A stretch of DNA of 50,658 nt from a virus. Positions within the stretch are counted from its first letter, which is position 1. Each line of letters opens with the position of its first letter. The stretch spans positions 1 through 50,658 of IMG/VR virus record IMGVR_UViG_3300025834_000001; one strand, 5' to 3'. Under the pieces are notes generated by a model. The model searched no databases and was not told where the DNA came from. It worked only from the letters and a program-made list of their open reading frames with translations. A program made the position numbers and the translations under genes. Of this stretch, positions 9,797 through 33,700 are shown in pieces.

Positions 9797-10231
9797 ATGA
9801 ATTATAAACATATAGCAGTTCCACGACTAATTGTTCTTATACTACTACTGCTATTTATTTTAACGCCAGGACAACCCGAGCCCTCAAAGAGTACGCCGGC
9901 CCAGGTTATTCATAGAACATACCCCTTGACTGATGAAAGATGGACTGAGGTTACAGCTACGGGTTATTGTAAATGCATTGTTTGCTGTGAAAAAATCAGT
10001 GAAAATGCCGTTACTTATTCTGGACAGATCGCCCGAAGTTCCAGAACCATAGCTGCTAACCTCAGTTTTTATCCCATTGGCACTCGTCTTTACATAAAGG
10101 ATTTAGGTATCCGAGTAGTTGAAGACACAGGAGGGGCACTGCACAATAAGGATATTGACATCTATTTCAACACACACAATGAAGCACTGCAATTTGGCAG
10201 ACAAACTATTTTAATTAAGGAGATATTATGA
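9797..10231 (+). CDS. 3D-domain (double-psi beta-barrel) cell-wall protein
   Basis: 144 residues. I chose ATG 9797, with GAGG about ten bases upstream, over GTG 9770, which has no site. An N-terminal hydrophobic helix (LIVLILLLLFIL) acts as signal or anchor, so the rest should be outside the membrane. The C-terminal domain has the 3D-domain signature: VTATGYC, then RTIAAN, PIGTRLYI, VEDTGGAL and KDIDIYF, including the conserved Asp residues. Such domains occur in MltA-type lytic transglycosylases and in sporulation and Rpf proteins. A Cys-rich insert (CKCIVCC) is unusual. Its place at the head of the Ubl operon rather than with the lysis genes is unexplained. Confidence 0.85.
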   Translation: MNYKHIAVPRLIVLILLLLFILTPGQPEPSKSTPAQVIHRTYPLTDERWTEVTATGYCKCIVCCEKISENAVTYSGQIARSSRTIAANLSFYPIGTRLYIKDLGIRVVEDTGGALHNKDIDIYFNTHNEALQFGRQTILIKEIL

Positions 10232-10650
10232 GTAAAGTAAAAGAAGCAATTGAAGCTACCAAAAATGATCTACCAACTCTTAAAATGATGGTAAAATTAG
10301 CTCACGCAATTGAGATACTCTTATCATTGACAGACGACTTCAAGGAATTCTTTCCAAACAAAATGAAACCAAACTGCAAAGACTGTGACGACTGTAAAGA
10401 ATGTGGAGAACACACCGCTGCAGAACTTGACGAGCTAATGGGAGAACTTGATAAACTTGTAAGTGCAGACATATCTAAACAAAAGAGCGTTATGTTAGCC
10501 TTCGATCCAAAAAGAAAAGTAGCTACAATTGACGCAAAAGAATCCGATTTTGATCCGAAATTCCTAACGTATTTACTGGAAAGCATAGGGCTTCCAAAGA
10601 ATACAAAAGTTGAATTTAAAGTAGCAAAGGAGAAAAGCAATGAAAACTAA
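10228..10650 (+). CDS. Cys-cluster hypothetical protein at the start of the Ubl cassette
   Basis: 140 residues. ATG 10228 overlaps the 3D gene stop (ATGA) with AAGGAG upstream. An N-terminal helix (PTLKMMVKLAHAIEILL) is followed by a short Cys knot CKDCDDCKECGEH, a helical acidic part, and a C-terminal alpha/beta piece (ESIGLPKNTKVEFKV). The Cys cluster may bind zinc, which in this setting invites comparison with RING-like E3 elements, but the spacing does not match a RING and I do not claim one. It overlaps the next gene by 11 nt. Confidence 0.75.
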   Translation: MSKVKEAIEATKNDLPTLKMMVKLAHAIEILLSLTDDFKEFFPNKMKPNCKDCDDCKECGEHTAAELDELMGELDKLVSADISKQKSVMLAFDPKRKVATIDAKESDFDPKFLTYLLESIGLPKNTKVEFKVAKEKSNEN

Positions 10651-11032
10651 AATCATGGGCAACATCGCCATCATCAGCTCAAGTCTAACCCAGACAGAAA
10701 TCAAGGGCCTTGAAAGACATAATCCAGACGCTTTATGTCTAAAGGACGAAAAGGGTAGCACTAAATATAGAATCACTTCTACATCTGGTGCAGCATCAAT
10801 CACAAGAAACGGAGTCTCCTTCAATGAAATAGATGAAACTACTGGACAGGTTTACATCACTGTAGCACTCCCAGTTGGAACTGAAAACAAAGCTGTTTAC
10901 ATTGCTGAAAACTTTGGCAAAGCATTGACAGATTTGAGAACAGTAGAAGCAGCTGCATCAGAAGCATTCGCTGAAGTAACAGCCAACATCGAAGCAGTAG
11001 CTGACGCTATTGACGTAATCGAAGCAGTTTAG
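10640..11032 (+). CDS. Hypothetical partner protein of the Ubl cassette
   Basis: 130 residues, starting inside the previous gene after AAGGAGAAAAGC. The first part (MGNIAIISSSLTQTEIKGLERHNP, then ALCLKDEKG) is beta-rich. The end is an Ala-rich helix (AAASEAFAEVTANIEAVADAI) that could form a coiled coil. It sits directly before the Ubl gene and ends 34 nt from it, so it may be a conserved part of the conjugation locus, perhaps a substrate or adaptor. The family is not recognised. Confidence 0.75.
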   Translation: MKTKIMGNIAIISSSLTQTEIKGLERHNPDALCLKDEKGSTKYRITSTSGAASITRNGVSFNEIDETTGQVYITVALPVGTENKAVYIAENFGKALTDLRTVEAAASEAFAEVTANIEAVADAIDVIEAV

Positions 11033-11066
11033 TTAACACCAATTTGAAACATAGGAGGAAATTCTA

Positions 11067-11300
11067 ATGATCAGAGTAACTATTGGAACAAACACGGACA
11101 GGACAAATGTAGTCCTTGACCCTAACACAACCCTTAAAAAAGCACTTGAAGATGCAAATGTCGATATCGGCGTGTCTTCAATAACACTTGATGGTGCAAC
11201 CTTAAAACCAGGTGACATCAACAAGACATTCGCAGAAATGGGAGTAACTGAAAACTGCTTCCTAATTGTCTGTGCAAAAGTGGAAAATGCAGTAGCATAA
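11067..11300 (+). CDS. Ubiquitin-like (beta-grasp) protein
   Basis: 77 residues after AGGAGGAAATTCTA. The order of elements is that of ubiquitin: strand IRVTIGTN, strand TNVVLDPNTTL, helix KKALEDANVD, strand SSITLDGATL, the GDINKTFAEMG turn, and last strand CFLIVCAKV. It lacks a C-terminal Gly-Gly and ends VENAVA, so conjugation would need a different tail or trimming after the last strand. Genes for E2-, JAMM- and E1-like proteins follow in the same direction, which makes this the probable modifier of the system. It resembles the short Ubl (protein C) of PRTRC-type plasmid cassettes. A terminator follows directly. Confidence 0.75.
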   Translation: MIRVTIGTNTDRTNVVLDPNTTLKKALEDANVDIGVSSITLDGATLKPGDINKTFAEMGVTENCFLIVCAKVENAVA

Positions 11301-11316
11301 TCCAAACCTCTTTCTT

Positions 11317-11346
11317 AAAGGCAGGCTTTAGCAACCTGTCTTTTTT
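11317..11346 (+). terminator. Terminator after the Ubl gene
   Basis: GGCAGG (11320-11325) pairs with CCTGTC (11335-11340) around a nine-base loop, followed by six Ts. It separates the Ubl gene from the E2-like gene and would favour higher Ubl than enzyme levels if read-through is partial. Confidence 0.85.
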
Positions 11347-11348
11347 AT

Positions 11349-11408
11349 GGCCCGGGTCTCGGCGACTATTCAGCCCTACTGATATCTGGTTCGATACCAG
11401 ACTGGGTC
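11349..11408 (+). ncRNA. Compact tRNA-like element between Ubl and E2 genes
   Basis: GGCCCGG (11349-11355) pairs with CTGGGTC (11402-11408) as a seven-pair acceptor-like stem. A canonical T-arm TCTGG-TTCGATA-CCAGA directly precedes the 3' strand. Between them, GTC/GAC and TCAG/CTGA can form two tiny arms. At 60 nt it is too short for a normal tRNA: the D and anticodon arms are cut down and no seven-base anticodon loop is clear. It may be a decayed tRNA, a tRNA mimic or a processing signal. A T-run follows. Confidence 0.5.
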
Positions 11409-11441
11409 TTTTAAATTAAATAAATTGAAAGGAGCTATATA

Positions 11442-13073
11442 ATGATAAACCTAACTCAATATTCCAAAGACTACATTGACGACTTAATTTCCAAAGACGT
11501 AAAGAAAGTTGTGAGTAATAATGTATACTCCAGTTTAAGTTGGTCTCATAATGGTGTATCTTCTTTTGCATATGACTATCCTATAAAACTGGTAAACACA
11601 ACAATAGATGAACTATTTCGTGAGATTAAAGAGCCGGTTAGCTTAAGACTTGACAAACTAAACCTCACACAAGAAGACGTAGACCTTTTAAAACATAACC
11701 CAACAAACCCTGGGAGCTGGCCTTATCCATTAAGAGAAACCATACGTCGTGTAAACGAATATAGATTTAATACTCCAGCAGCAGACAGAAAATTTCCTCA
11801 TATTACAATAGCACATATTACAAAAGGATATTCTGGGATCAACTCGATTGGACAAGAATCTTCCAACAATGCAATACCTTTTAAAAGATTAGAATCAGCT
11901 ACGACACTACTGAAACAAAATGGAAAGCACAGACACGCAATGCTTGAAGTTGGCCCATCACAATACCTGTACATCACTAATCAATGGGGCTCAACATTAA
12001 TGTTTGCCATGTATTCTTGTATGCTCTTACTATTCAAACATATGTTATCAGAGGAAACAGCCGCAAAAGCAGAAGAACTAGCTCTTGATATATTCACAGA
12101 CAGGATAAGTACAGAAGCACTGGTTCATAAACTCGCTTCTATAATCGTAGACCCTAAAATACAACAAGAGCAGTTTAGAAAAAGCATCCAAGGTATCGAA
12201 TACAAATTACGAGTTAAAGAAAAACAACAATATGAAAAAGAATTAACTGACGTTACAGTTTCTCTACGAGACTTAGAAATAGAAATAACAGACTTGTGGA
12301 CAAAACATTCTTTCCTTAATCGACAAATAGATTATCGTAATGCATCTCCAGACGCTGAAGATGAAAGCAACGCACTATCTGAATTTATTATGAGAACTCA
12401 AGAAATAGTAGGCCAAGCATATAACCCAGAAACTCAAGTGCTTCAACTCGCTATTGTAAACGAATTGGAATATTATGAACGAGACGCATTCATAAGCTCT
12501 ATCAGAAATAAAGATTCAAGATGGTGGGAAACAAACGACTTTAGTATGTCTTCACTTTTAACTTTAATTATTTGTTTCTTAACTGAAAAGTATTCTTTAA
12601 TAACTAAAAGCATGATAACCCTAAACTTTGCGAGAAAAGAAGTAAATAGAGATTCCTCAACAGCAGCTCTAGCTGAATTAAGAGAATACATGGGAATGTC
12701 ACATCCGCATATTATGGGTATTAGTTGCTTTGGTTCAAACAGAAGTCAGATTATAGCAGGAATGGGGAAAGGAAACTACATAGGGTCTGTTGCCCAAACT
12801 ATAGCTGCCTGTAAAAACATGAATATGACTGACAGAATGGCTATAGGAAAACTGCTAGAGTACACAAACATTGCAATCGTTCAAGGTAAGCCATTTATCA
12901 AGAATAACAGAACTGGAGAAATATTAGATTATGCACACTTCTATGAGGAAAATAGAGATAACATTCAGCTTATGTTTAACTCAGAAGCAACTGCAAAAAG
13001 AACAATGACTCAATCAAAAGAAGATGTAGAAACTATCGCTGATATATTTGATAAGGAGGAAGATAATGAGTGA
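11442..13073 (+). CDS. E2-like (UBC superfamily) protein with long N-terminal extension
   Basis: 543 residues after GAAAGGAGCTATATA. The C-terminal region holds SHPHIMGISCFGS, with His421, His423 and Cys429. This matches the E2 pattern in which an HPN/HPH turn is followed a few residues later by the catalytic Cys, as in prokaryotic E2 families of PRTRC-like loci. Around it, LREYMGM and the helix-rich end fit that fold. The first ~300 residues are not a known domain; a coiled coil spans about 250-300 (RVKEKQQYEKELTDV). Predicted role: accept Ubl thioester from the E1-like protein and pass it to a target. It overlaps the JAMM gene by 8 nt. The E2 call rests on the motif and on neighbours. Confidence 0.7.
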   Translation: MINLTQYSKDYIDDLISKDVKKVVSNNVYSSLSWSHNGVSSFAYDYPIKLVNTTIDELFREIKEPVSLRLDKLNLTQEDVDLLKHNPTNPGSWPYPLRETIRRVNEYRFNTPAADRKFPHITIAHITKGYSGINSIGQESSNNAIPFKRLESATTLLKQNGKHRHAMLEVGPSQYLYITNQWGSTLMFAMYSCMLLLFKHMLSEETAAKAEELALDIFTDRISTEALVHKLASIIVDPKIQQEQFRKSIQGIEYKLRVKEKQQYEKELTDVTVSLRDLEIEITDLWTKHSFLNRQIDYRNASPDAEDESNALSEFIMRTQEIVGQAYNPETQVLQLAIVNELEYYERDAFISSIRNKDSRWWETNDFSMSSLLTLIICFLTEKYSLITKSMITLNFARKEVNRDSSTAALAELREYMGMSHPHIMGISCFGSNRSQIIAGMGKGNYIGSVAQTIAACKNMNMTDRMAIGKLLEYTNIAIVQGKPFIKNNRTGEILDYAHFYEENRDNIQLMFNSEATAKRTMTQSKEDVETIADIFDKEEDNE

Positions 13074-13770
13074 CAGAGTAATTGACTTAGTCAAAGCCAA
13101 CTGGGATGTATTACTAGAAAAACATGGCAAGTCACTATACGCTATGAGAATTGAAGACATTTATTCTTTAGTAGCACCAAAACCAATGATACTATACACA
13201 CCACTAGCTGAAATGAAAATACACGCTTTGGTTAAAGAAAGCACAATTGAAATAAGCTGGCATGGTTTAGTTGAAAAAATCAACGATATGACCTACCTTA
13301 TCACAGATATCCTAATGTACCCACAAACTTGTACAGCAGCAACAGTAACCACTGACGATGAAAAATACACCAATTGGTTACATAGCCAACCAGATGAAAT
13401 CTTTAACAAGATAAGATACCAAGGACACAGTCATGTTAGAATGGGAGTTATGCCATCCGGAGTTGATCTGAATTACTACAGAGATATGATTAAGAATCTG
13501 AAAAAAGATGACTTTTATCTCTTTGAAATCAGAAACAAAACAAACGAAATGAACATAAGACTGTACCAAAATAATGATATACCAGAATGGTTTGTCAATC
13601 GAGAACTACAGACAACAATAGCAATTAATGGAACTCCTAGTGATGTATATGCTCAAAGAATCATGAGTGAATTCATACAAAAAAAGGAGTATCCAAAACC
13701 CCCCTTGGAAGACAAACTAAACAAAGCACCTAAAACTATTAAAGGTAAGAAAGGGGACATCAAACTATGA
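13066..13770 (+). CDS. JAMM/MPN metalloprotease (deubiquitinase-like)
   Basis: 234 residues from ATG 13066, which has AAGGAGGA upstream; the ATG at 13048 is further inside the E2 gene. The JAMM motif is complete: Glu62 (IEISWHG), then His121-Ser-His123, seven residues, and Ser131-x-x-Asp134 (GHSHVRMG...PSGVD). Such zinc isopeptidases remove or mature ubiquitin-like proteins. A basic tail (KTIKGKKGD) follows the domain. It sits between E2- and E1-like genes, overlapping both, so the three are translated together. Predicted role: trim the Ubl C-terminus or reverse conjugation. Confidence 0.9.
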   Translation: MSDRVIDLVKANWDVLLEKHGKSLYAMRIEDIYSLVAPKPMILYTPLAEMKIHALVKESTIEISWHGLVEKINDMTYLITDILMYPQTCTAATVTTDDEKYTNWLHSQPDEIFNKIRYQGHSHVRMGVMPSGVDLNYYRDMIKNLKKDDFYLFEIRNKTNEMNIRLYQNNDIPEWFVNRELQTTIAINGTPSDVYAQRIMSEFIQKKEYPKPPLEDKLNKAPKTIKGKKGDIKL

Positions 13771-14432
13771 ACTTAAACAAACATAGGGAATTCTTTGATC
13801 CCGTGCAAACAGAATTGGCTATTCATATCATAGGTGTAGGAGCAGTAGGTTCAACCATAGCCGAGCAATTGGTAAGACTCGGACTGGCTTCCTTACACAT
13901 CTATGATATGGATATTGTAACAGAGCACAACCTAACCAACCAAATGTATTACCATCACCAAAAAGGAGTGCTGAAAACAACAGCTTTACGAGAAACATTA
14001 GAACGAATAAACCCAGAGGTATATGTTGTAAAACACGAAAAAGGGTACATCAAACAACCCTTAGGAGGAATTGTTTTCTTATGTGTAGACAGCATCGACC
14101 TTAGACGTAAGATAGTGGAAAACAACCAATATAACCCTAACATTTCCGCAATGTTTGATTGTAGAATGGAATTAACTGGAGCTCAACATTACGCTGCAGA
14201 CTGGAAAGACCCATACTCCATCCAAGTTTTTTTAGACTCTATGCAATTTTCCAGTGCAGAAGCCAAAGCTCAAACACCGGTCAGTGCATGTGGAACATCC
14301 TTAAGTATTAACCCAACAGTTAGAACTTTGAGTAGCTATTGCATAAGCAACTATATTAACTTCATAAACACAGGAAAACTGAAGAAGTTTATAATATTCG
14401 ATGCTTTCAGCTACGACACTTACGCAATTTAA
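13767..14432 (+). CDS. E1/ThiF-like Ubl-activating enzyme
   Basis: 221 residues starting in an ATGA overlap. It shows the adenylation Rossmann motif IIGVGAVGS (21-29), the acidic strand YDMDIV (46-51), NLTNQ (55-59), and a catalytic-Cys candidate Cys175 in PVSACGTS. It lacks the CxxC zinc pairs of MoeB/ThiF, as do several minimal E1-like proteins of PRTRC and phage Ubl loci. It should adenylate the Ubl C-terminus with ATP and pass it to the E2-like protein. It is the last gene of the cassette; a structured RNA and the reverse transcriptase gene follow. Confidence 0.85.
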   Translation: MNLNKHREFFDPVQTELAIHIIGVGAVGSTIAEQLVRLGLASLHIYDMDIVTEHNLTNQMYYHHQKGVLKTTALRETLERINPEVYVVKHEKGYIKQPLGGIVFLCVDSIDLRRKIVENNQYNPNISAMFDCRMELTGAQHYAADWKDPYSIQVFLDSMQFSSAEAKAQTPVSACGTSLSINPTVRTLSSYCISNYINFINTGKLKKFIIFDAFSYDTYAI

Positions 14433-14850
14433 AATGTACTAAATGATACAACGCAATTTAAGTTTCAATCCTAAGCAATGGATTCAACTTAGCTTTATGT
14501 GTTCCACTAAAGTATCAAATGCTTCGGAGGGGAAACACCCGCAGATGACGCCCCAGTAGGAGGCCGCATCCTGTGGGTCACCTGGAGATGGATATGTTAT
14601 AGCGTAATTCCGGTTAAGATTCAATAGTTTTTACAAATTATTAACCCAAAAGGGCTACGAACTATAACATTTCAACACAATTCCCCTAAGAGCATCAGAC
14701 ATTCAACAGTCTGCAGAGCCAACAGCTCTCAATTTCATCAGAACTACCAGCAAAAGTTAACTTACTTCTGGCACCCTGAGCTAAGTTGATCACCGTGCAG
14801 CACTGCATACTCCCGTATACCACAGTTTAGGTTGTATCAAACCAAAAGAA
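14433..14850 (+). ncRNA. Structured non-coding region upstream of the reverse transcriptase
   Basis: About 430 bp without a gene but full of stems. They are AAGTTTCAATCC/GGATTCAACTT (14460-14490), the bulged hairpin family member (14493-14512), CCCGCAGATG/CATCCTGTGGG, ATGTTATAG/CTATAACAT enclosing GGTTAA/TTAACC, CAGAC/GTCTG, AGAGC/GCTCT, and TGCAG/CTGCA. The 11-mer ACGCAATTTAA is repeated at 14422 and 14451. GC content rises above that of the neighbours. This is best read as a long structured RNA linked to the RT, possibly its template or primer RNA. Borders are approximate. Confidence 0.6.
14493..14512 (+). repeat. Bulged hairpin, copy 1 of 3
   Basis: CTTTA-T-GTG pairs with CACTAAAG around a TTC loop, leaving one unpaired T. 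The same stem with one bulged base recurs at 16074 and 16421. GTATCA and then GGGGAAACACCC follow, as they also do after copy 3. Confidence 0.6.
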
Positions 14851-14863
14851 AGGAAGTACACAA

Positions 14864-16021
14864 ATGTTTTATTTAACTTACAAAAGAACCATAACACAAC
14901 GACCTACACCAGCACCATCAATAGAGTATTTAATAAAAAACTTCCATAACGTAAATCAAACCCCAGTTTACCCACTAGATCCTATCCCATCATTTGCAAC
15001 AGCAACAAAAATAATAGACCATATAAGCAATACAATGATAGATACTTACGCACCTTATATTGCTCAGCAAAAACTGATTGCACTATGGAACGAAAGTAAG
15101 TACCTACTGGATGAAGATATGTCCAAACATTATTACTCTTTCTTAATCCCAAAGAAAACAGGTGGTCAAAGAAAAATCATGGCCCCCAACGACGAGCTGA
15201 AACATTACTTAAGACGCTTTGTAGATATTATACAAGACGATTTTCACATCTTATTTCATGACGCAGCTTATGCTTATACTAAAGGTCGGTCAACAACTGA
15301 CGCAGTTAAAAAACACCAAAACAATGAAAGCCAATGGTTCTTAAAGATAGACCTTAAAGATTTCTTTCCGAGCTGTTCATACAATAAAGTTAACACAGCA
15401 CTACAAAGTATATTCCCATTATGTTGCCTTTATGATAAAGTAGAAACCAAGGAAGCTCTTGAAGGAATGTTAAGATTATGCTTTGTAAATGATGAACTTC
15501 CACAAGGTACCCCAGCAAGTCCGTTACTAACGAACCTGTTAATGTTACCTCTGGACTACACCATCAAAAATAGATTCAAAGACTTCAACAAAAGCTACTT
15601 TGTATATACCAGATACGCAGATGATATCTTAATATCTTGTAAATACAATTTCAATTGGAGAGACGTTGTAAAAGAATTAGATCATGTTCTAAAGACAATG
15701 GGCTTAACCATTAACACAGAAAAAACAAGATACGGTAACCGAAACGGAAGAAACTGGAATCTCGGATTAATGCTTAACAAAGACAACCAAATTACAGTTG
15801 GGCATAAACGAAAGAAAGAAATCCGAGCAATGATTCACAACTTCCTAGAAGATTACCACAAAGGTGAACCGTGGTCGAAGCAGGATACACAAATATTCCT
15901 TGGACAACTCAGCTACGCTACACAAGTGGAACCAGATTATTTCAACCATGTTATTAAATTAGCAGGCCATGGACGAAAATATGACCTCAGAACAGCTTCA
16001 TTGCAAATTCTGAAAAGCTAA
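14864..16021 (+). CDS. Reverse transcriptase, retron/group II-like, flanked by structured RNAs
   Basis: 385 residues after AGAAAGGAAGTACACAA. RT motifs in order: GGQRKIMAP (100-107), a KGRSTTDAV segment (140-148), FLKIDLKDFF (159-168) with the first catalytic Asp, LPQGTPASP (212-220), YADD (251-254), and a KT-containing motif D (about 283-288). The GLMLNK...VGHKRKK segment follows. QGTPASP is typical of retron and group II-type RTs and excludes the diversity-generating type. No maturase X domain or endonuclease domain is present, so a group II intron is unlikely. It sits directly after the Ubl cassette and is enclosed by two long structured non-coding regions. Its exact RT class cannot be set by eye. 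Confidence 0.9.
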   Translation: MFYLTYKRTITQRPTPAPSIEYLIKNFHNVNQTPVYPLDPIPSFATATKIIDHISNTMIDTYAPYIAQQKLIALWNESKYLLDEDMSKHYYSFLIPKKTGGQRKIMAPNDELKHYLRRFVDIIQDDFHILFHDAAYAYTKGRSTTDAVKKHQNNESQWFLKIDLKDFFPSCSYNKVNTALQSIFPLCCLYDKVETKEALEGMLRLCFVNDELPQGTPASPLLTNLLMLPLDYTIKNRFKDFNKSYFVYTRYADDILISCKYNFNWRDVVKELDHVLKTMGLTINTEKTRYGNRNGRNWNLGLMLNKDNQITVGHKRKKEIRAMIHNFLEDYHKGEPWSKQDTQIFLGQLSYATQVEPDYFNHVIKLAGHGRKYDLRTASLQILKS

Positions 16022-16073
16022 TTAAAATCTTACAATAGCAATTACTAATTAAAAGGTTAGCCCCCTAATTAGA

Positions 16074-16093
16074 CTTTAAGTGCTACACTAAAG
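16074..16093 (+). repeat. Bulged hairpin, copy 2 of 3
   Basis: CTTTA-A-GTG pairs with CACTAAAG around a CTA loop. It lies between the RT stop and the giant hairpin and has the same single-base bulge as copies 1 and 3. Confidence 0.65.
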
Positions 16094-16114
16094 AAAGAAA
16101 AATACTAATAGTAC

Positions 16115-16362
16115 AAAATTCCAGGATCTTCAGACCGTCTCGGTTAAACTTCGCCGTACTGCTCCGGGCCTCCAGTGGAAAAGCAAGCTACGGATCCAAC
16201 CCGGCGTAGCACATTTTGTAAAGTTCATTTCGCAAAAGCACTACACTCACTTTACAAAACGTGCACTGCCGGAGTGGATTCCTCAGCTTGACTTTTCCCA
16301 CCTGGGGCCCAGGAGCATACCGGCGAAAGTTAACCCAGACCGCCTGAAGATCCTCGAATTTT
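16115..16362 (+). ncRNA. ~248-nt near-continuous imperfect hairpin downstream of the RT
   Basis: The two halves are inverted copies with scattered mismatches and bulges. Outer pairs: AAAATT (16115) with AATTTT (16357), and AGGATCTTCAG (16123-16133) with CTGAAGATCCT (16344-16354). Middle: GGTTAAACTTCGCCG against CGGCGAAAGTTAACC, and GGAAAAG against CTTTTCC. Inner: TTTTGTAAAGT (16214-16224) with ACTTTACAAAA (16249-16259). The terminal loop is 24 nt. This is far longer than a terminator and resembles the long msd stem of retrons, although retron RNA normally precedes its RT. No open frame is present. Confidence 0.75.
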
Positions 16363-16420
16363 AATTTTTAAGTATTGTAAGATACAAAACTACATATTAG
16401 AGATATAGGCGTAAGTCTAG

Positions 16421-16440
16421 TTTCAAGTGCTACACTGAAA
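16421..16440 (+). repeat. Bulged hairpin, copy 3 of 3
   Basis: TTTCA-A-GTG pairs with CACTGAAA around CTA. Against copy 2, two pairs have changed in a compensatory way (C-G to T-A and T-A to C-G), while bulge and loop are kept. GTATCA and then GGGGAAACCC (16478-16487) follow, just before the next gene. Confidence 0.65.
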
Positions 16441-16477
16441 TAATATAAAGTCAAGGTATCACGTCTTTCCCATACGA

Positions 16478-16487
16478 GGGGAAACCC
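16478..16487 (+). promoter_or_regulatory. GNRA-capped mini-hairpin before the replication operon
   Basis: GGG-GAAA-CCC, flanked by CGA and CG that extend pairing, 38 nt before the ATG at 16526. A related GGGGAAACACCC sits at 14529-14540 in the upstream RT-linked RNA. It may end the structured transcript or cap a leader. Confidence 0.35.
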
Positions 16488-16525
16488 GTTTTAATTTAAG
16501 TAATATGTAGACAAGGAGTCGAATT

Positions 16526-20617: not shown

Positions 20618-23398
20618 ATGAGCTTTTTAACAGAATTCTTCGACATAAACGAGGAATCTGGCGAAGTTGCCGTATGTTGCCCCTTCCCACACATTACTAC
20701 AGGAGGGATGACATACTTAGAACACAATCCTTCTGCACATGTAAACACTACAACAATGTTATATCATTGTAAAGTATGTGGTACAGGTTATTCAGAGGCT
20801 CAGTTCATACAACAGCTTCTAGGTTGTGGTGTCGCAGATGCTAAAAAAATACAGCACTGCTTCACTACTACAGAGGATTTACACGATTGGAACGATTCAA
20901 CAATACTAACAACAGCCTCAAAAGAACGAGGTCTAGCCCTTGGTATTTCAGAAGAAGTTCTGAGAGAACTCAATGTTAGCACCCCAGCTGGAACCGGTGA
21001 CCTAATTGCATTCCCAGTATTCATGTTTGACCATCTTTTAGATATACGCAAATATGACCCTGGTAACAAACCTAAAGTCAAATCTAGAGCTAAATGTGTC
21101 AGTGGATTAATTATCCCATTTGATACTTGGAGAACATCACCAACAACCCGTACAACAATAGTTTGTGCAGGAGAGAAAGATATGGCTATCGCACGATCAT
21201 ATGGTTTCAATGCAATCACCATTACAGGTGGGGAGGCTACATTACCTAAAGCACCAAAATACTTTAAGGACAGAAAAATAGTTATTGCTTATGACAATGA
21301 CGGAGCAGGTATCTCGGGAGCAAAAAGACTAGCTGCCACTTTAAAACCTTATGCCGAAAGTGTAAAGGTACTGACCAATTTCCATGAAGTATGTACAGAG
21401 CAAGGCGAAGACATAACAGACTACTTTATGAAGTATAACAAGACTAGAAACGACTTAATCAAATGTATATCAAATACAGACGAGTACATACCTACATTGG
21501 AAGACCTAAAGAAAGACTACCCAATCGTAGACCTTCTAACAGCAAGTCACCCAGATAACATAGGTAAAATACTAAGGAGTAATGTACAAATCGTAGCTGT
21601 ATCCGAAGCAACTTACGCCACACCCTCAGTGATCACAGCAGATAAATTTAGAACCGGTGGAGAAAACGACGGTATGAAAGTAGGAGAAACTCGAGACTGG
21701 GAGTTAAATGAACAAACCTGTCAAGACATCCTACACCTTATGGACAACAACTTCACAGAAGAAACCATAGCAAAAAATCTACGTGGTATGCTAAAGATTA
21801 TGCTGAAAGAAAAGTATGTGCATATTAAAGCACTAGAAAAGAAAACAATATTCAAGGCTTATCTAACAGATATGTTTGAAACATCCGATACAGATACACA
21901 GCCTATGGAGTACACAGCTTACTCAATTGGTAACAAATTAGAGTCTGGTAAAAAGTACATGGCGACTTACAAATTGGTTCCTCACCCATATAAAGGACAA
22001 CAACTAACGATGATTGTTCTGGATGTAGTGCAGGCTAACGATTCCGTTTCAAACTTTCAACTGACTCCAACTGTTAAAGCAAATCTCCGAGCCTTTCAAA
22101 AGGTCAAAGGAAGTGTAGCTGAAAAAATGGAGCACATTACAGAAAGAGCAAAAGGATTAATAGGATACGATGGTAATAACCAACTGATCCAGACAATCGA
22201 CTTAGCATTTCACACAGTGTTACAATTCAGATTCGGAAATTTTAAAAGTGTACGAGGTTACCTTGACACCATTATTGTAGGAGAAAGCAGAACTGGTAAA
22301 TCCAGCACTGCCGATATACTCAGAACAACATACGCTCTAGGAACATTTACATCATTGGCAGGAAATAGTGCAACAATAGCAGGACTGGTCGGAGGCTCAA
22401 ACAAAACAGCCACTGGCTACCAGACTAGAGCAGGTACTATCCCCCAGAATCATAAGGGATTAATCATCTTTGAAGAATTTGGAAAGTCCAACGCAAATGT
22501 AACTGCAGAGCTGACTGATATTCGATCTTCCAATGAAGTACGGATAACCAGAGTTTCTGGGACTATCACATTACCTGCAATGGTAAGAATGATAGCATTA
22601 ACAAATACTAAAGCATCTGGTGGAGCCATTAGACCTATTGCAAGTTACCCAAACGGAATAAGTATTTTACAGGAATTAGTCGGAACAGCAGAAGATATAG
22701 CACGATATGACATCGCACTTGTATCAGCTGACCGAGGCAACAGCCAAATCGACCCATTATGGGAACCTCTAGAACCTTTTACAATAGAAGAATATAGAGC
22801 TAGAATTCGATGGGTATGGAGCCGAACTCCAGATCAAATAATTATCTCGCCAGAACTGAGCAAATATATAATGGAATGTGCTAACACATTAAATAAAGAA
22901 TATGCTTGTCATATTAAAATATTTGGTACAGAAGCATGGAAAAAACTAACTAGACTTGCACTAGCAGTAGCAGGGTATCTAGTTTCCACCGATCATGAGT
23001 ATGAAAACCTTATCCTACAAAAAGAGCACATAGACTATGCAAGAGATTATCTCGTCAGTATCTATGATAACTCTACTTTCAAGCTCAAGGAATATGCAGA
23101 GCATGAAAGAAAGTATTCCACGATAGACAAAGAGGGCGTAGACAACCTTCAAGATATCTATCAGAAATCTCCAAGTATGATACTTCAGTTAGAACAGAGC
23201 TCGGCTGTAACTAAAAATATGTTAGCTGCTGCTACTGGACTGGATACTGGAGAATTAAATGCTGTGTTAATGCGATTAACAAAAGGACTGTTCATTCAGA
23301 TTCAGAACCATGACATTGTTCCAACTGAAAGATTCAGACTTGGTTTAGGAAAACTCAATCGTTCAACCAGCATGGCAAGGCTAGGTGAACCCTCATGA
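20618..23398 (+). CDS. Primase (zinc finger + TOPRIM) fused to MCM-like AAA+ helicase
   Basis: 926 residues. The N-terminal zinc module has CCPFPH (20-25) and LYHCKVCG (48-55), like CHC2 primase fingers. A TOPRIM domain follows, with VCAGEKD (about 183) and YDNDGAG (about 225). The central part is unassigned. The C-terminal ATPase has Walker A GESRTGKS (about 555), the insert LAGNSATIAGLVGG, Walker B LIIFEEFGK (about 617), and sensor segment IALTNTKASG. The GxSxTxxGLxG strand before Walker B matches MCM helicases rather than DnaB-type phage helicases. It makes primers and unwinds DNA at the fork. The start is close to the previous stop with a weak site; its end overlaps the polymerase start (ATGA). 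Confidence 0.88.
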   Translation: MSFLTEFFDINEESGEVAVCCPFPHITTGGMTYLEHNPSAHVNTTTMLYHCKVCGTGYSEAQFIQQLLGCGVADAKKIQHCFTTTEDLHDWNDSTILTTASKERGLALGISEEVLRELNVSTPAGTGDLIAFPVFMFDHLLDIRKYDPGNKPKVKSRAKCVSGLIIPFDTWRTSPTTRTTIVCAGEKDMAIARSYGFNAITITGGEATLPKAPKYFKDRKIVIAYDNDGAGISGAKRLAATLKPYAESVKVLTNFHEVCTEQGEDITDYFMKYNKTRNDLIKCISNTDEYIPTLEDLKKDYPIVDLLTASHPDNIGKILRSNVQIVAVSEATYATPSVITADKFRTGGENDGMKVGETRDWELNEQTCQDILHLMDNNFTEETIAKNLRGMLKIMLKEKYVHIKALEKKTIFKAYLTDMFETSDTDTQPMEYTAYSIGNKLESGKKYMATYKLVPHPYKGQQLTMIVLDVVQANDSVSNFQLTPTVKANLRAFQKVKGSVAEKMEHITERAKGLIGYDGNNQLIQTIDLAFHTVLQFRFGNFKSVRGYLDTIIVGESRTGKSSTADILRTTYALGTFTSLAGNSATIAGLVGGSNKTATGYQTRAGTIPQNHKGLIIFEEFGKSNANVTAELTDIRSSNEVRITRVSGTITLPAMVRMIALTNTKASGGAIRPIASYPNGISILQELVGTAEDIARYDIALVSADRGNSQIDPLWEPLEPFTIEEYRARIRWVWSRTPDQIIISPELSKYIMECANTLNKEYACHIKIFGTEAWKKLTRLALAVAGYLVSTDHEYENLILQKEHIDYARDYLVSIYDNSTFKLKEYAEHERKYSTIDKEGVDNLQDIYQKSPSMILQLEQSSAVTKNMLAAATGLDTGELNAVLMRLTKGLFIQIQNHDIVPTERFRLGLGKLNRSTSMARLGEPS

Positions 23399-24810
23399 GA
23401 CAATGGATATCAACAACAATAACGACCAACAGACAAGCCAATGAAATGCTAGACCTGTTGAAATTACTCGCTCCCAAGGTTGGAGCCTTTGACTCTGAAA
23501 CTAACGGACTGCATATTATAAACAGTACACCATTCCTGTTCCAGTTTGGATATTTACATCCAACAAAACACGTTGGTTACTCATATGCAGTTGACCTAGA
23601 GAAACAACCACTGTTGGGCCGGCAAGTGATAACTTGCTGGCACGACTATGTCTCTAAAAACTTTATAAAGTATTTAGCTCATAACACTAAGTTTGACTTA
23701 CATATGCTTTGCAATATTGGCTTACCATATCTTACGGAAAACTTATCCGATTCAATGTTCTACATTAGATATGCTCATGACGCAGTTCAGCCTGCAAATG
23801 GGGGCCCACCACTTGCACTAAAAGATTATGCTTCACAATACATCGCACATAATGCGAAGTATCAAGATAAACTTTTACAGAGTGAACGGGCATCCATCAC
23901 AAAGGAATTAAATCTGAAACTGAAGATTAGGCTAAAAGGATTAGTTCCTCCAACGGACTGGAACGCCAAAGCCTATACATTAGGTGTACTCACTGACATG
24001 TTTAAAGACCCAGTCTCTGACTGGACTTGGCTACCTGAAGATGCCCAAAAGGTATATCAAGAGTGGCTTAACATAGACGTGCCAGAAGTTATTCGACCAA
24101 GCGTAGTAGCTTTGGTGGAATCAGACTTCATACCATATACTATTCTGAATAGAGAAACTCTAATCAAGTATGCTCATTTAGATATAGTATACGCACTAGA
24201 AATCTATGACCATCTGGAGCCTATAGTTTTGGCTCGTGGTAACGAGACAGCCATTGAAATAGAGGAATCATTAATAATTCCACTATGGGAAATGGAACGA
24301 ACTGGATTTAACTGTGATATAGATTACTTAATCGAATCACAGGGTAAAGTCAAGGAGTACATTCTGGAAAGGCGACAAGCACTTTACGACCTTTGCCAGA
24401 GGAAAATCAACATAGGGCAACACGCCTTGGTTAAAGAAATACTTGAAACTGATTTCAATGTCAAATGCACATCAACAAACAAAGATATCCTGGATGTGGT
24501 AGTCTCAGATATAATCCGTGCAGGAGACAATCCCGAAGCAGTTGAATTTATTAGCACTATCCAAGAACTGAGAACCCTTGAAAAATGGTACTCTGCCTAC
24601 ATCATGCGGTTTATTAGACAAACCAAAGGTGGAGCAACTAGGCTGTACACAACCATCAACCAAGTTGGTGCTGTTACAGGCAGAGTAACATCTGATTTCC
24701 AACAGTTTCCAAAACAAGGTATAACCAAAGTTGACGGAACTGAATTATTCAATCCACGACGCATGGTAATCTGTACTGGTGGAGCTTACAACTCCATCAT
24801 CTATCTCGAT
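23395..24810 (+). CDS. Family A DNA polymerase, exon 1 (472 codons)
   Basis: N-terminal 3'-5' exonuclease with FDSETNG (Asp33, Glu35), LAHNTKFDLHML and YAHLDIVYALE, followed by the first part of the polymerase domain (VGAVTGRVTSDFQQFP). The exon ends in IIYLD, with the catalytic Asp of motif A. The unspliced frame stops two codons later in the intron. Joined to 25475-26287 it gives 742 residues, usual for phage pol I-type enzymes. The start overlaps the primase-helicase stop. Confidence 0.93.
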
Positions 24811-25474
24811 TAATACAATGGTCGAGAATAAACCCCGAGAATTGCTGGAACATCCCACCGGGACAATCAGCAGCCGAGCCTGGTAACAGGAAGGTTCAAC
24901 GACTAGTCGAAAGACGTACACTCAAGTGAGTGGAAGCACGGGGAAGTTTGACATCAAGTTCAACTTGTGGTATCATCTAATTGAAAGAAGGTGATAACAT
25001 GGCAAAAGGATTTAAACAAATAAAATATTCCAAAGCTGATGAACAATTTCTTATAGATAATTATGCAACATTAGGTAACAAAAAATGTGCAGAATTACTA
25101 AACAGAAGCATAACAGCACTAAACCATAAAGTAAAAAAGATGAACCTAACTATCGACTGGAGTTATACTTACACTTCAGTACAAGGATACTTAGTAGACT
25201 GCACAGACCGAAATAATAAACAGGCTAAACATCGTCAAATTATGGAACAAAAAATTGGAAGACCTTTAACCGCACAAGATATAGTTCATCACATAGATGA
25301 AAACAAGTTGAACAACAATCCAGAAAATCTGGAACTGCTAACACGGGCATCACATATAAACCTACATCGCCCTAAATTAATGGCTGCCAAACTTATGATA
25401 TAGTCTACTCTGCATAGTAATATGCAGCAGTCACATTGACGAATTAGAATTAACGACTCTAGTTGAATATAAGG
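24811..25474 (+). mobile_element. Group I intron with HNH homing endonuclease gene
   Basis: 664 nt. Exon end CTCGAT pairs with internal guide GTCGAG, ending in the required U-G at the 5' splice site (P1). Core elements are visible: AATTGCTGGAAC (P), AATCAGCAGCCGAGCC (Q), GGTTCAACGACTAG (R), and GATATAGTC (S) at about 25397. A perfect stem CTGCATA-GTAA-TATGCAG (25410-25427) fits P9. The intron ends in G25474, and splicing restores D-YSQIELR, motif A of the polymerase. The endonuclease ORF lies between R and S. Confidence 0.95.
24999..25403 (+). CDS. HNH homing endonuclease (intron encoded)
   Basis: 134 residues from ATG 24999, which has GAAAGAAGGTGATAAC upstream; the ATG at 24981 lacks a site. 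The N-terminal SANT/Myb-like DNA-binding part (YSKADEQFLIDNYATLG, then KCAELLNRS) joins an HNH_3 domain with GRPLTAQDIVHHIDENKLNN and HINLH. It would cut intronless polymerase genes near the insertion site and spread the intron. Its stop codon TAG is part of the intron S element, so RNA fold and reading frame overlap. Confidence 0.93.
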   Translation: MAKGFKQIKYSKADEQFLIDNYATLGNKKCAELLNRSITALNHKVKKMNLTIDWSYTYTSVQGYLVDCTDRNNKQAKHRQIMEQKIGRPLTAQDIVHHIDENKLNNNPENLELLTRASHINLHRPKLMAAKLMI

Positions 25475-26287
25475 TATTCGCAGATAGAATTAAGATTCCA
25501 AGCATTCTACACTATATTAGTAGGCCACCCAGATTTAAACCTGTGTCGTGCCTACATGCCATACAAATGTATCAACGGGTTAGGCGAAACTTTTGACTAT
25601 AACAATCCAGATCACATTCAAAAATGGAATCAAGATTGGTACTACGAAGAAGACGTTACTAAACACTGGGAACCTACTGATGTACATGGTGCCACAACTA
25701 TGAGTGCAACTGGACTTACTCCAGCTGATCCAGAGTTTAAAACATTACGGTCAACCATAGGTAAGCGTCTGAATTTTGCGAAAAATTATGGGGCCCAAAA
25801 GGGACGCATCCGACAGATGTTCCCAGAATGTACTGAAGAAGAAGTTGTCAGAATCAACGACGCTTATTATAATACATTCCCGGGTGTTAAAGAATACCAT
25901 AACTATTGCTACGGCAGAGCCAATATGTACAGTTACACCGAAAACTTATTCGGTGTGCGATACTACGGAGTCAATGGTCATAAACTTATTAACTCACTTG
26001 TTCAAGGAAGTGCAGCGTTCTATCTGAAAAAGAAGATACGAGAAGTATATGACTACTTCAAGTCCAATGAACTTCAGTCCACATTCCAGATGAATATACA
26101 TGATGAACTATCATGGGAAGTATTCGATGGAGAAGAACCACACTTCTTTGAAATCAAAAGAATTATGGAAGACTGGGAAGACGCCCTTGTCCCTATAGTT
26201 GCTGAAATGGACATCACCAACAAGACTTGGGCAGACAAAAAGGGGGTGGTATCAATTGCAAATATCTACGATTATCTTAGCGATTGA
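25475..26287 (+). CDS. Family A DNA polymerase, exon 2 (270 codons plus stop)
   Basis: Begins YSQIELR, completing motif A with the Asp of exon 1. It contains motif B in LNFAKNYGAQKGRI and motif C in NIHDELSW (HDE), then ends DYLSD. No good start exists in this exon, so splicing is needed for an active enzyme. Its last 30 bases overlap the proposed true start of the RuvC-like gene. Confidence 0.93.
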   Translation, partial: YSQIELRFQAFYTILVGHPDLNLCRAYMPYKCINGLGETFDYNNPDHIQKWNQDWYYEEDVTKHWEPTDVHGATTMSATGLTPADPEFKTLRSTIGKRLNFAKNYGAQKGRIRQMFPECTEEEVVRINDAYYNTFPGVKEYHNYCYGRANMYSYTENLFGVRYYGVNGHKLINSLVQGSAAFYLKKKIREVYDYFKSNELQSTFQMNIHDELSWEVFDGEEPHFFEIKRIMEDWEDALVPIVAEMDITNKTWADKKGVVSIANIYDYLSD

Positions 26288-27784: not shown

Positions 27785-30700
27785 CTACCTATAGTAATAA
27801 AACATATCTTTCAGTCTAAACTGTAACATCTTCGGTGTTAGCTTGGTCATTCTCATAGATTGTTTACTGTTACCTTTCTTACTGTAATGTTTCTTAAAGA
27901 AAGATTCATAACGACCAGCCTTCTGGTTAGGGTAATACTTCTTAAAGTATGATCGTCTTCCACTCTTGCTGTATGCTTTACCTGCCCCCGAATAAGAACT
28001 GTACTTCTTGCCACTTGATTTCTTCTTTGGACTTCTTGGTTGCCATCTCATGTTTGCTCCAAATACACTTGGTGCGATCTGGGATAGAGCTTGAGATATA
28101 GGGTGCCCTTCTAATCTTTCAGAATACCTTGGTATCTGCTCTCCAATACGTTGAGCTAGTGGCCCTATCGCTGGTAGATATGCTGCAGCCATTTGAAGAT
28201 TGGTTTGAGCTTCTTGATCTTGCATCGCTAACAACATCGCTGTAATAGGATACTTCAACCCAGCATTTACCCTGTTCCACATCGATCCATCTATCGTACC
28301 CTCGTCTGTTCTGAGAGGGGGCTGTGTTAACAGGTTATACACATCCATATACGACGGATTCAACTTCAATGTCATGTTGGTATCTTCAAACTCTATATTA
28401 CCTTGAAGGAGACTATACTGTAGTGACCTATTATTTTCTAGTTCTTCCTGTGGAATAGAATCAAAATTCCAGATAGGCCTCATAGTATCTCCCATCATAC
28501 TGAACAACCTAGGATTGTTACTCATGACATCTATCCAAAACTCCAAGTTCCTCATTGTGAATGTATAGAACGGGATTACTAACTCAGCGATATATTCTGA
28601 AGGGTTCTTCAACCCATATTCAAAATGCGTTTTAGCTACCATTGTATACGCTTCTGATTGTGACCTACCACCTTTTTCAAGTGCCCATAAATACTCAGCA
28701 TACCGGGCAATTGATTCTACCTTTTGAGTAGGCTGTAACATAAACTCTACACCTATGTTTGCTGTCTGCCAAAGCTCATGTTCTACAGTCCTGTCTTTAG
28801 AAGCAATCATTTGCTTGTAGTAGTCTATACTTAATTCATCACCTTTTTCTCGGGCTTCTTTAAGTTTATCTCCCCAACCTTTATAAGTCTGGTTGAAGGA
28901 TTCCTGGTATGCCTTATTCATCTCAGCTGCTTGTCCTGCGGCTGGGCCATCTTGATGAAAAATATGAATTCTGCTAAATTCTTCTCTAGTCATTTTAGAT
29001 GGTTGTGGATTAGCACTAGAGAAATACCAATCAATACTTTGTAATTGGATTCTATTATACTTGCTATGGCTAATTATGTCTTTTAGTGCAGTATTATATC
29101 GACCTTCATCTCGTAAGGCTCTACCATAGAATGCCATCATTTCTAAAGGGCTCTCTGTGACAATTGCATTCTTTACGAAAGCATCTACAGCATTACGGAA
29201 TACAGCACCTCCTGTCATTAGATACCCCATCTTAGATAGATAGGTAAACTTCTGTACAGTTCTTAACCACATATTATCAAAATGGAAATCATTGATTGTT
29301 TGGAACGCTTTACTGTATGTCTGGTAATGCATGAACACTGGATTAAGTTTACGAGCTGCTGCTAAATCAGCCTCATTCCTAATCATAAGTTCTACTACAC
29401 GAGCTCCTGTCTTTGACTTAGGGTCTTTTATAAGTGCTACAAGTCTTTGTTCTGGAGCTGCCTTCAATGCTTTTACAATTTCTATATCATCCATTTTTGA
29501 TAACAGCCCTGTATTAATACTATGCATTTCATCGAAGAATAATTGCATGTATCCTACAACAGCATCTACAGTCATAGCATGATACTTAGCACTGTTTATT
29601 AAGCCTTGTGCCATGGAACCGGGGTACCCTTGCTGGAATATACGACGGTATTTGGCTGAGCCAATAGAGGAAGTGAATGTATCTGAGGCATCCATCCGAG
29701 TGTGATGTAACAGTTCGTCAGACTCTGGTAGAGCTTGACGTAATCTATCGGAGAATGTGTTATAGTAATCCTCATATAAACTAGGGTTGGCGATCTCTCC
29801 CATGGAGAAATCAATTTTATCCCCAACCAAAATCTCTTGCTGTGCATGGACATCCATGTATAGTTTAGATAACTCAAGATTACCCGTCAGTTTTGATTCC
29901 TTAAGGGCTTGGGCCATGTTCAGTCGTGGTAGAGTGGTTGGCACAACACTGGAATCTGGTCTAACACGGGAAAGCACTAATCGAATTTCATCCCCTATGA
30001 AAACCTTTTTAGGGTTATTAAATTTACTATTATACAATTTTATAAGATGGGAGTTAAGAAAGTCTTCCAATACTTTTGGATCCCCCAGCTTTCTAACTGA
30101 TTTACTAGCTTCAAATAAACAACTGTCAATTTTTTCTTTGGTTGCTCTTAACGCTTTAGAGGCATCTGTAACTTCTATATCTGCTTCCTCATGTAGCCTA
30201 TTACGAATTTCTATTAAGCCTTCTTTTATTTCATCCCAGTTTTTGTACTGTTTGCCTGTCACTAAATTGGCTATCTCGTTATATACCTCTGGTGTTTTAG
30301 CTATGACATCTGGGATAGTGTGTTGATTCACAATATCCTCTGTGACTGTAACCATATTACTTTCAAACTCGATACCAGTTCTAGCTGTAAATTCTGGAGT
30401 GAGTTTCTTTTGGAAAGCAACAAACATATCTACAACATCCATGTCTTGCTCAAACCCTAGTATGCATATCTTCATCATACGCTTACTTCTTAACAATGCC
30501 CATGCCAATGTGTCTTCATCAAAGGATAATACTATCTTCATCTGCTGTCTTGCCATTGCATGTTGTACTGCTTTATGATAGCTCATGTATTTTTGGAATC
30601 CTTCGGCATCTACGGAACCATCCCCTTTAATAAATGCTCTAACATCTTTAGCAATCTTGCGTCCTAACATATAGGATGGTTTCAGTAAGGCAGCTCTTTT

Positions 30701-33700
30701 GTCATATAGTGCTCTTGCAGCCTCTCCTAAAGAAGCTACGTTTGCAGCTTGGTGCAGAACATTCATGAAGTCGGCCTGTCTTGCGTACACATCTTCCACA
30801 GCATCTATGATTTTAACAAGGTCTACTTGTGGTGTGTTAACGCTGACAGAGTCTATCAGTTTGTAAATCTGGTCAACGTCAAATTCATCCACAGGGCGTT
30901 CCTCATTATGGAACTTATTAAACTCTTTATTAAATTCATCCATCTGTCTTGCACGGAAGTTCAATTCATTCTCACTAAATACTAGCTTTCTTGAGTTCTT
31001 GAAATCAAGTAATAGTTTGACTACAGCTTTAGAGTCTGCGTCAGTAAGTAGGTCTAGGGCTGCACGGAACTGCTCTCCCATTGAACTTTTTAATAGGAAC
31101 CTTGCAGTAGCGTAATCTACCAAAGTATCCTTATTTAATTTAACATGTTTTAAATAAGGGTGTGCCTTGATCATATTGGCTACTAACTCATTTATCTCTG
31201 GTGTGAACGGGTTACGTTTGAACAGAGCTGTGTTTGCAATACTGTCTGCTGTACGCCCCACAATATTAATAACCTTACCAAAGGTAATGATATACTGTTT
31301 ATCATCTACGATACGTAGGATATTCTGGATATCATCTACTGCAATTCTAGAAACCATTATCGGGTCGTAGTTCTTTTTAATTCCGTATAGTGGAGCTGGG
31401 TTTAAATGTTTCACACCATCAGCATCTACATAGCTTCTGTAAATCTGGTTAATATTAATAGGCTCATATATTGCAGACCTTGTGGCTAAAATTGCATCAT
31501 CATATTGTGCACCCCTTTTAGCAATGACATACTGGTGTGCCATAGCTCTATTAGAATTTTTAATACCCAAATACACCGACCTTAATTCATAAGCCAGTGT
31601 GCTTAAATTTTTCAATAGTGGAGCTGATACTCTAAACCCATCGTGCTCAAGTTCGTACTTTTCAAAAGCACCTTTAACATTGTCTATTAGATTTAACAGC
31701 TTGGAATCGGGCAATTGCAACAGGTCTAGCTCAAAGTTAGAGTCTCCAGATACCAATGCTTTCTGCCTATAAAATAACTTCTGTGTTAAAGCAGACAGCA
31801 CATGCTTCTGTTCTCTACTTATTTCAGCAGCTCCTAGCTTCTTTTTATACAACTCCATAGCATCTACATGGGATACGTTCTTGCTTTGTAATAATGACCT
31901 CATTGCATTGATACGAGTTACCTCTACTAAGAATTTCTCTGGGCTTAGATCTATCCTAAGCCTAGCTTCTTCTCGATCAAGTATTTTCTTAAGGAACGGT
32001 AAATCGAAGTCTCCACCATTCCATGTAATAAATCTTACTTTACCTGTTTCCCCAGGACCCCCAATACGAGCTCCTATCTTTTTCTTGTAACTAAACATTG
32101 GAGCTAACGCATCTTCAATTAACTCATACTGTGCTTTGTCATGGTGTGTGGCAGTTGACTTCATATACTTAGCATATACTTTCTCATATGTCGTCTTGGG
32201 GTTTTTCTTAAATGCCTTAATGAAGAACTCATTTTCACTATACAGTTCCTCCATAAGTTCTGCACTTGGTGGTCTCTCTGGCATTTGTATAACTTCATTA
32301 ACATCAACACCCTTACTACCAGAAGCTCTCAAAACTAATTCAGTTACATCTCCGTTAGGTCTACCGTCTGTTTCAATATCAAAGTAGATTGGGCGTATGC
32401 CTTTTTCTTCCATCTCTTTGATTAACTCTGGGAATTCTCTTTGAGTTATAAGTTCAAGTGCATGTGTGTCCCCTCTGCCTGTATGTGGGGTTCCCTCTAC
32501 TTGGGCTAAAAACTCTGGGTCAAGATAGAATAAATCCTGCTTGTAAGACCTATCTTGCAATATGGTTTGCAGTTGAGTTTCCGTATCTTGAATGATATGG
32601 TATACTGCATTGCTTATATCGTCATCTGTCATTTCACTTGTTATTTTATTACGAGCCGAACTATGTATAGAGTTTAGAAAGGCTACTCTTACATCCGGGG
32701 CAACTACTTCTGAAATTCTACCGTATACTTCAGAAACAAAATCTCTACTGTTGGCGACACTACTTTGTATCATAGTCATTGCATCTGTTAATTCAGCTAC
32801 TTCTTCTATTCCTTTTGTAGTGGTGTCTACCATATTGATTTCGTCAAGCACAGCCTCCATAGCCTCATGAACATTAGACTCAACCAACATAGTTTCAAAC
32901 CCTTGCTGTTGGTCAAATTTATAAGTGTACCAAACACTTTTCATGTTCATATTCCCTATAGGAGAGTGTATCAAAGAATCGCTTAATTCGTCAATCATAT
33001 CCATCATCTTGTATGCATGAGTGGCAAATTCATCTTTAGTAAATGGTAGTTCTAGGAATGCATTAGTGGTTTTATCTTCTTTTATCTTTCTAAGAGTATG
33101 CTCCATACTTGTTTTTATACTTCTTAAGACAATTAAGTATTCTTTGACTACAGTTACAGTCTTTAAATTTTTATCGTCAAAGGATTTTAAAGCATCTGTG
33201 TATCTACTCCAAGTTTGTTCCAAGTACATAGGGTCTTTAATAGGGGCCCCTTTAGTAATTTCATCCCCTTGTATCAACTTATCTCTATACCCTGTTGGAG
33301 AGTCAGCGTCACGAACAACACCTTTAACTCCAACATCTGCATGGTCTATAGGTATGTCATTTGCAGGTGTGTCGGTGTATTTACCAACTACATCTCCAGT
33401 GGAGCGTTGTATAATGTCCCCTTTATTAGTAAGTATCTTACCTACCTGTTCCTCGGGCACAGCTTTTGCAATATTACCTAGGTATATTTGGTTTATTAAA
33501 TTCTTATTAAAGGTGGTTATGTTAACCCCTTTAGGTATCTGTATCTTATAAGTAAACTCTTGGAAGTGTTTCGTAATATCAAAAGGAACCTTAGTAAACT
33601 TTGCATTAGCTTCACCTGTTTTAGTTAGCGTATCCTTGATTAATTTGAGCATAGCAACTTCATCTGGAATTTCTCCATTGGCTCCGATTGTCACACGCTG

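Follow-up and report, generated by a model that had tools for sequence, protein, structure and literature searches.

Retrons are RNA-templated DNA elements that bacteria use against viruses. The retron groups in the literature take their definition from the effector, which may be an ATPase, an HNH or HEPN protein or a membrane protein, among others (PMC13405049). Retron reverse transcriptases (RTs) typically carry VTG and NAxxH motifs, with motif outliers on record; the priming G is located where the a1 arm ends on its inner side, and Retron-Nex1 has already been described with more than one msr-msd copy (PMC6868368). Ubiquitin-like proteins (Ubls) of prokaryotes were surveyed in 2006, and the parts of this survey that are drawn on here include Ubls of phage tails accompanied by JAB, as well as mobile operons of E1, E2 and JAB; an RT is not among the systems described in those parts (PMC1779556). 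A literature search of partial coverage yielded no Ubl retron type and no paper that ties retrons to Ubl conjugation.

The stretch of DNA analysed here (the window) is an IMG/VR virus record of 50,658 bases. Since its genes include a terminase, a major head protein, tail fibre proteins and replication genes (primase-helicase, DNA polymerase A), besides a YqaJ recombinase, it belongs to a tailed phage. In the initial annotation, positions 10228-14432 were assigned to a Ubl-conjugation cassette next to an RT. The four genes named there (Ubl, E2-like, JAMM and E1-like) are indeed open reading frames where they had been placed, with the motifs that had been described. The unit is nevertheless larger than that range: the four genes fall inside it, but it omits the RT and the RNA elements, at most three in number, with which the unit extends to about 16510. 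The gene at 10228-10650, which lay within the range, was considered as a part of the module and rejected, as it has no relative in other loci, unlike the X gene at 10640-11032, which does. The features are as follows.

10640-11032, plus strand: X, a small alpha/beta protein of 130 aa; homologues lie directly upstream of the Ubl in related loci
11067-11300, plus strand: Ubl of 77 aa, predicted beta-grasp; C-terminal tail KVENA plus VA
11442-13073, plus strand: E2-like protein of 543 aa; N-terminal region, coiled coil, and C-terminal domain with H423 and C429
12702-12728, plus strand: HPHIMGISC motif, residues 421-429 of the E2-like protein
13066-13770, plus strand: JAMM/JAB metalloprotease; E62, H121, H123, S131 and D134, counted from the ATG at 13066
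13767-14432, plus strand: E1-like ThiF-family adenylating enzyme of 221 aa; GVGAVGS, Cys175
14444-14839, plus strand: ncRNA unit 1 (msr-msd like); a1 TGATACAAC at 14444-14452, priming-G context ACGC, a2 GTTGTATCA at 14831-14839, z about -6
14491-14521, plus strand: conserved hairpin H2 of unit 1, with UAUCAAA directly after it
14864-16021, plus strand: reverse transcriptase (385 aa) with YADD; most similar to retron RTs, NLG replacing VTG
16027-16383, plus strand: ncRNA unit 2; a1 ATCTTACAATA at 16027-16037, then G (priming motif TAGC), H1, H2 at 16072-16102, a long imperfect msd-like hairpin, a2 TATTGTAAGAT at 16373-16383
16390-16510, plus strand: ncRNA unit 3, short and possibly degenerate; a1 CTACATATTA at 16390-16399, H2 at 16419-16449, a2 TAATATGTAG at 16501-16510

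Searched singly, neither the Ubl nor the 543-aa protein has a significant match in Pfam, NCBIfam or PHROG. The beta-grasp fold that had been proposed for the Ubl was recovered in the predicted structure of a natural Ubl-X fusion from a related locus, L008 (mean pLDDT 84): the best matches of residues 1-77 of this model are all ubiquitin or SUMO, with a Z of 8.8 to SUMO. The window Ubl is 48% identical to the L008 fusion, and the model supports its reading as a beta-grasp protein closest to SUMO and ubiquitin. Of the 80 loci related by their RT, 12 have such a fusion, with X as its C-terminal domain; in the window X is a separate gene. A first count that placed the fusion in most loci was traced to fusions among the sequences used to build the profile, and was corrected to 12/80.

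The window Ubl has no C-terminal Gly-Gly and ends in Ala. In the stand-alone Ubls the tail reads K-x-(D/N)-N-A, which is the exact end of the protein in 26 of 46 cases and is followed by one to three extra residues in another 12 of 46; GG or GA is found at this place in five of the 46, and the tail of the L013 Ubl reads KSDGGCC. The joint of the Ubl-X fusions lies directly after the Ubl tail and the fusion loci mostly contain no second Ubl, as would be expected if the JAMM protein frees the Ubl.

We call the 543-aa protein E2-like on account of its motif and its position. Its C-terminal domain displays the motif P-H-(I/L)-x4-C-x-G, which resembles the HPN...C block of E2 proteins, and both His423 and Cys429 are invariant (81/81 sequences). 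A single-sequence search of phages, plasmids and viral contigs found no relatives, none of 40 members of the family matched the Pfam E2 families, and hhalign comparisons with PRTRC-B and the crAss E2 were not significant. The structure predicted for the L038 protein (505 residues; pLDDT 80, pTM 0.45) is confident in parts only; there was no UBC among the matches listed for it in the PDB and viral structure libraries (Foldseek, VIA), which barely cover the catalytic domain. The initial cassette assignment thus holds for the Ubl, the JAMM protein and the E1, whereas the E2 role is suggested by the invariant PH(I/L)....C motif, the searches with the L038 model neither confirming nor excluding a UBC fold.

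The JAMM reading frame, listed with a TTG start at 13048, has an ATG at 13066 and reads E...HSH...SGVD. Its match to the PADLOC JAB model is weak (2.8e-4), and the E, H, H, S and D of the metal site are conserved in 80 of 80 sequences. The E1-like protein exceeds the Pfam cut-off for ThiF (E 2.5e-17); its glycines, Asp49, Asp108, Lys70 and Cys175 are present in all 81 sequences and Asp47 in 80 of them. With active-site residues invariant in 80-81 sequences, the cassette genes are not chance reading frames.

The identical gene set, in the same order, is located on the minus strand of phage MT835544.1 (L002). Single-sequence scans of viral contigs and genomes with the E1 and JAMM proteins found none, and further loci were retrieved only when two-sequence alignments were used in these scans. 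Nearly all of the loci found in this way contain X, Ubl, E2-like, JAMM, E1 and RT in that order. As for the exceptions, L039 ends before the E1 and L041 is fragmented. Twelve loci represent at least five genome contexts that have the module alone in common, flanking genes being shared only inside each group.

With an RT alignment as query, viral contigs yielded 395 relatives, and the analysis went on with the 80 best. Among these best 80 of 395, HMMs identified an E1 in 71 loci, an E2-like protein in 70, and a JAMM protein, a Ubl and X in 69 each. In eight of the nine loci that lack an E1, the contig starts no more than about 1.2 kb before the RT. The remaining locus, L116, has suffered an internal loss and retains X, Ubl and part of the E2-like gene. 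The gene order is conserved in 67 of the 68 loci where it could be read. The sole exception, L058, is apparently a circular record opened at another place. Some loci are one phage assembled twice (L077-L079, L096-L097), so that the independent phages number fewer than 80. The E2-like proteins remain RT-linked down to 15% identity. We are highly confident that the RT, the RNAs and the cassette form one unit. The RT, noted at first as a neighbour of the cassette, is shown by these data to belong, with its RNAs, to the module.

Besides IMG/VR contigs, contigs of MAGs assigned to Oscillospiraceae, Eubacteriales and Ruminococcus contain relatives of the module, and the hosts of the phages that bear it are therefore probably Clostridia of gut-like habitats. 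A close relative of the E1 is present in five of 391 cellular genomes of one class.

Both catalytic Asp residues of YADD are conserved in all 89 RTs. When the RT profile was compared to the PDB, the best matches were retron RTs (Ec83, E 5.6e-41; Ec78, 2e-39), far ahead of group II (1.4e-14) and DRT enzymes. The NCBIfam model retron_St85 gives 213 bits, under its cut-off of 235. The VTG of region Y is absent, N-L-G being aligned there (L in 87/89, G in 89/89), and the St85 RT of phage 4LV2017 carries VTG at the place where these RTs have NLG. A strict NAxxH in region X is absent as well: the sequence is D-A-V-K-R-H, with the invariant H shifted one place later. The element is retron-like in architecture, and falls outside strict membership on two motif tests, VTG and NAxxH.

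The ends of the intergenic region between E1 and RT pair with each other: over nine loci the summed helix score is 192, versus 158 for shuffled sequences (sd 8, maximum 179 of 200). In 112 units, the a1/a2 score is 22.3 for the real arms versus about 19.1 for arms swapped between loci; it is the joint tests alone that are significant, single a1/a2 helices mostly not being so individually. A G is found directly after a1 in 72% of the 57 good units, and directly before a2 in 72%. Unit 2, directly 3' of the RT, has an a1/a2 helix of 11 bp, a pair of msr-like hairpins and one long msd-like hairpin (z about -18). Unit 3 has a weak model match (E 0.016) and no significant fold.

Hairpin H2, which is followed by U-A-(U/A)-C-A-A, occurs in 108 distinct copies, in which 98.3% of the cells are paired and eight of the nine pairs show changes on both sides; the nine founding sequences gave 96.3% and seven of nine, respectively. 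Its covariation is 0.756, versus 0.248 when shuffled and 0.04-0.12 when slid. When 1.28 Mb were scanned with a covariance model of H2, 116 copies were identified, every one on the strand of the RT (allowing for L002, which is stored reversed); 33 control loci, from PRTRC plasmids, crAss phages, further phages with ThiF and a St85 retron phage, gave none. One copy is located just upstream of most RTs and extra copies lie downstream in many loci, with eight copies in L056.

The RNA copies of L056 share 72% identity in their 5' part and 37% in their centre, versus 35% for shuffled centres. The folding of most RNA centres does not exceed that of controls (median z -0.63 vs -0.70); strongly folded centres elsewhere are found in L067, L106 and L072 (z -7 to -10). 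An Rfam search of the window found no family, and a comparison of the RNA region with phage DNA found no spacer-like matches. When the RNA regions were compared with the window by blastn, no repeat longer than 14 nt appeared other than their own inverted arms, and no template/variable repeat pair. We consider it quite likely that the RNAs are msr-msd like.

The explanation that we favour, and hold to be reasonably probable, is that of a phage-borne retron-like element whose partner proteins constitute a Ubl-conjugation cassette, arranged as X, Ubl, E2-like, JAMM and E1, followed by one or more msr-msd-like RNAs and the RT. The JAMM protein would cut after K-x-(D/N)-N-A to trim the Ubl, whether stand-alone or fused to X; the E1 would adenylate the trimmed tail, and Cys429 of the E2-like protein would accept the Ubl and attach it to a target. 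From its RNAs the RT would make msDNAs, and the resulting complex of RT, RNA and DNA may set the timing or the target of conjugation, in the way that other retron complexes control effectors. True protein conjugation by the cassette is likely, control of it by msDNA a possibility that we put forward tentatively. The occurrence of the module on unrelated phage backbones makes it likely that it serves in conflict, either against other phages or against host defences, and a defence or counter-defence function is also suggested by its carriage on phages and by the known roles of retrons and bacterial Ubl systems; a part in inter-phage or host conflict nonetheless has, in our view, about an even chance of being correct. 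An unlikely extension is that one RT uses a set of RNAs that share their ends and have unrelated centres to generate varied ssDNAs, which would act as sensors or guides for placing the phage Ubl, a form of DNA-instructed protein tagging.

The Ubl cassette and the retron could also be independent modules, adjacent because of a shared phage ancestor or an accessory-gene hot spot, with no part for the RT in conjugation. The downstream replication genes that the window shares with L009 and L013 would fit such a history, as would the crAss phages, which carry a Ubl cassette without an RT; the idea becomes improbable given that order and pairing are kept in 67 of 68 loci across five contexts that share nothing else, and that E2-like proteins at 15% identity are still RT-linked. 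The near-obligate RT and the RNAs would be left unexplained if the cassette served counter-defence only, interfering with Ubl-based or other immune systems of the host while the RT is incidental. We deem this similarly improbable, although the cassette is phage-borne and adjoins replication genes, which speaks for it. Neither this reading nor mimicry of a host Ubl defence, both raised in the initial annotation, is favoured over other roles by the present results.

The ThiF/MoeB family serves sulfur-carrier and cofactor pathways in cells, and NCBIfam models of the ThiF/MoeB type do match the E1, all of them far under their cut-offs. That the E1-like protein and the JAMM protein act on a small carrier in the style of ThiS/MoaD is a reading to which we give hardly any credence, given these scores, a tail of K-x-D-N-A instead of GG, and the presence of both an RT and an E2-like partner with invariant His and Cys. 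The RT itself might be of another phage type, for instance that of a diversity-generating retroelement, with the RNAs as regulatory leaders; the replacement of VTG and NAxxH and the unrelated RNA centres within one phage (37% identity, 35% shuffled) are in line with this. Against it, the top PDB and NCBIfam matches are retron RTs, the window is without a template-variable repeat pair, and a1/a2 and the position of the G fit retrons, which makes such an RT very improbable.

If the retron-like reading is true, the module represents a new type of retron, partnered by a protein-tagging system and with several RNAs per RT, and it joins retrons and bacterial Ubl conjugation, hitherto separate fields. 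Judging from the 395 RT relatives in one viral scan, it is common in phages of probable gut Clostridia. It opens to experiment the reach of control by retron msDNA, the targets of bacterial Ubls and the maturation of a Ubl that lacks Gly-Gly.

Among the known systems, the St85, Ec78 and Ec83 retrons (I-A/II-A in PADLOC naming) resemble the module in RT sequence, in an adjacent RNA closed by a1/a2, in the G after a1 and in clustered accessory genes. They differ from it in that here NLG takes the place of VTG, the partner is a Ubl cassette and many loci have several RNAs per RT. Bil and type II CBASS (Cap2/Cap3) likewise use E1, E2 and JAB proteins in phage conflict, and matches were obtained to their E1 (including Cap2) and JAB proteins, whereas the present module has an unfused 221-aa E1 and a 543-aa E2-like protein, possesses its own Ubl, is phage-borne and RT-linked, and has no CD-NTase that was seen nearby. 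The PRTRC plasmids (E-C-F-B-A-ThiF) show the same logical order of a small protein, a Ubl, an E2 (B, with F), a JAMM protein (A) and ThiF. Sequence support is confined to the E1, for which PRTRC_ThiF gives 32.5 bits versus a cut-off of 144.75; no other PRTRC model matched, E, C, B and F being without a significant match, and no RT was seen adjacent.

Finally, a full set of these genes in a phage had been regarded as unusual, which it is not: crAss001 and other Steigviridae encode Ubl, E2-like, JAMM and E1 proteins in identical order. In crAss001 (gp79-gp76) these genes lie in the phage replication region, the E2-like protein reads H-S-H....C-x-G, and profile matches were obtained for the E1 (1.1e-22) and the JAMM protein (E 2.5e-6). 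The crAss cassette differs in having no RT or H2 nearby, in the long C-terminal extension of its Ubl and in an E2-like protein that is not alignable to ours. The crAss phage genes called thiamine biosynthesis probably belong to a Ubl pathway.

The terminase pieces at the two ends of the window both match one protein of L009, a relative that shares downstream replication genes, and the record is therefore probably a circularly permuted, near-complete genome. DNA polymerase A is split by an HNH gene, probably an intron or homing insertion, and a 2765-residue protein had no Pfam matches.

1-1545 and 50451-50642, minus strand: the two parts of the terminase
23395-26287: DNA polymerase A, two ORFs flanking the HNH endonuclease gene (24981-25403)
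27785-36082, minus strand: 2765-residue protein

Several loci with related modules carry additional genes. The family between JAMM and E1 is found in a subset of loci only, with two copies in L008, and one of the genes between RNA and RT reads, judged by eye only, like a DUF3990-type ADP-ribosyltransferase. The RNA units of L056 have their ends in common and unrelated centres, and each sits between small genes.

L008:11026-11887, L012:9190-9792, L038:10961-11491, L039:9698-10201: family between JAMM and E1
L040:10360-11195, L041:11795-12145: genes between RNA and RT
L056:7490-12711: eight RNA units

A jumbo phage has a more distant ThiF-like gene close to its topoisomerase genes, and viral contigs from the environment (L015-L036) contain others. 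The Ubl/E2-like/JAMM/E1 set is also present in crAss-like phages (crAss001, L043-L047, L003, L005), where existing annotation reads metalloprotease and thiamine biosynthesis. Their E2-like protein has the motif MHSHV...C-x-G-x-G, and the crAss001 Ubl (gp79) has the tail ...KKIKSGA, followed by an extension.

L006:4929-5612: ThiF-like gene, Xanthomonas phage PhiXhv-15
L004:1265-6487: crAss001 set, gp79-gp75
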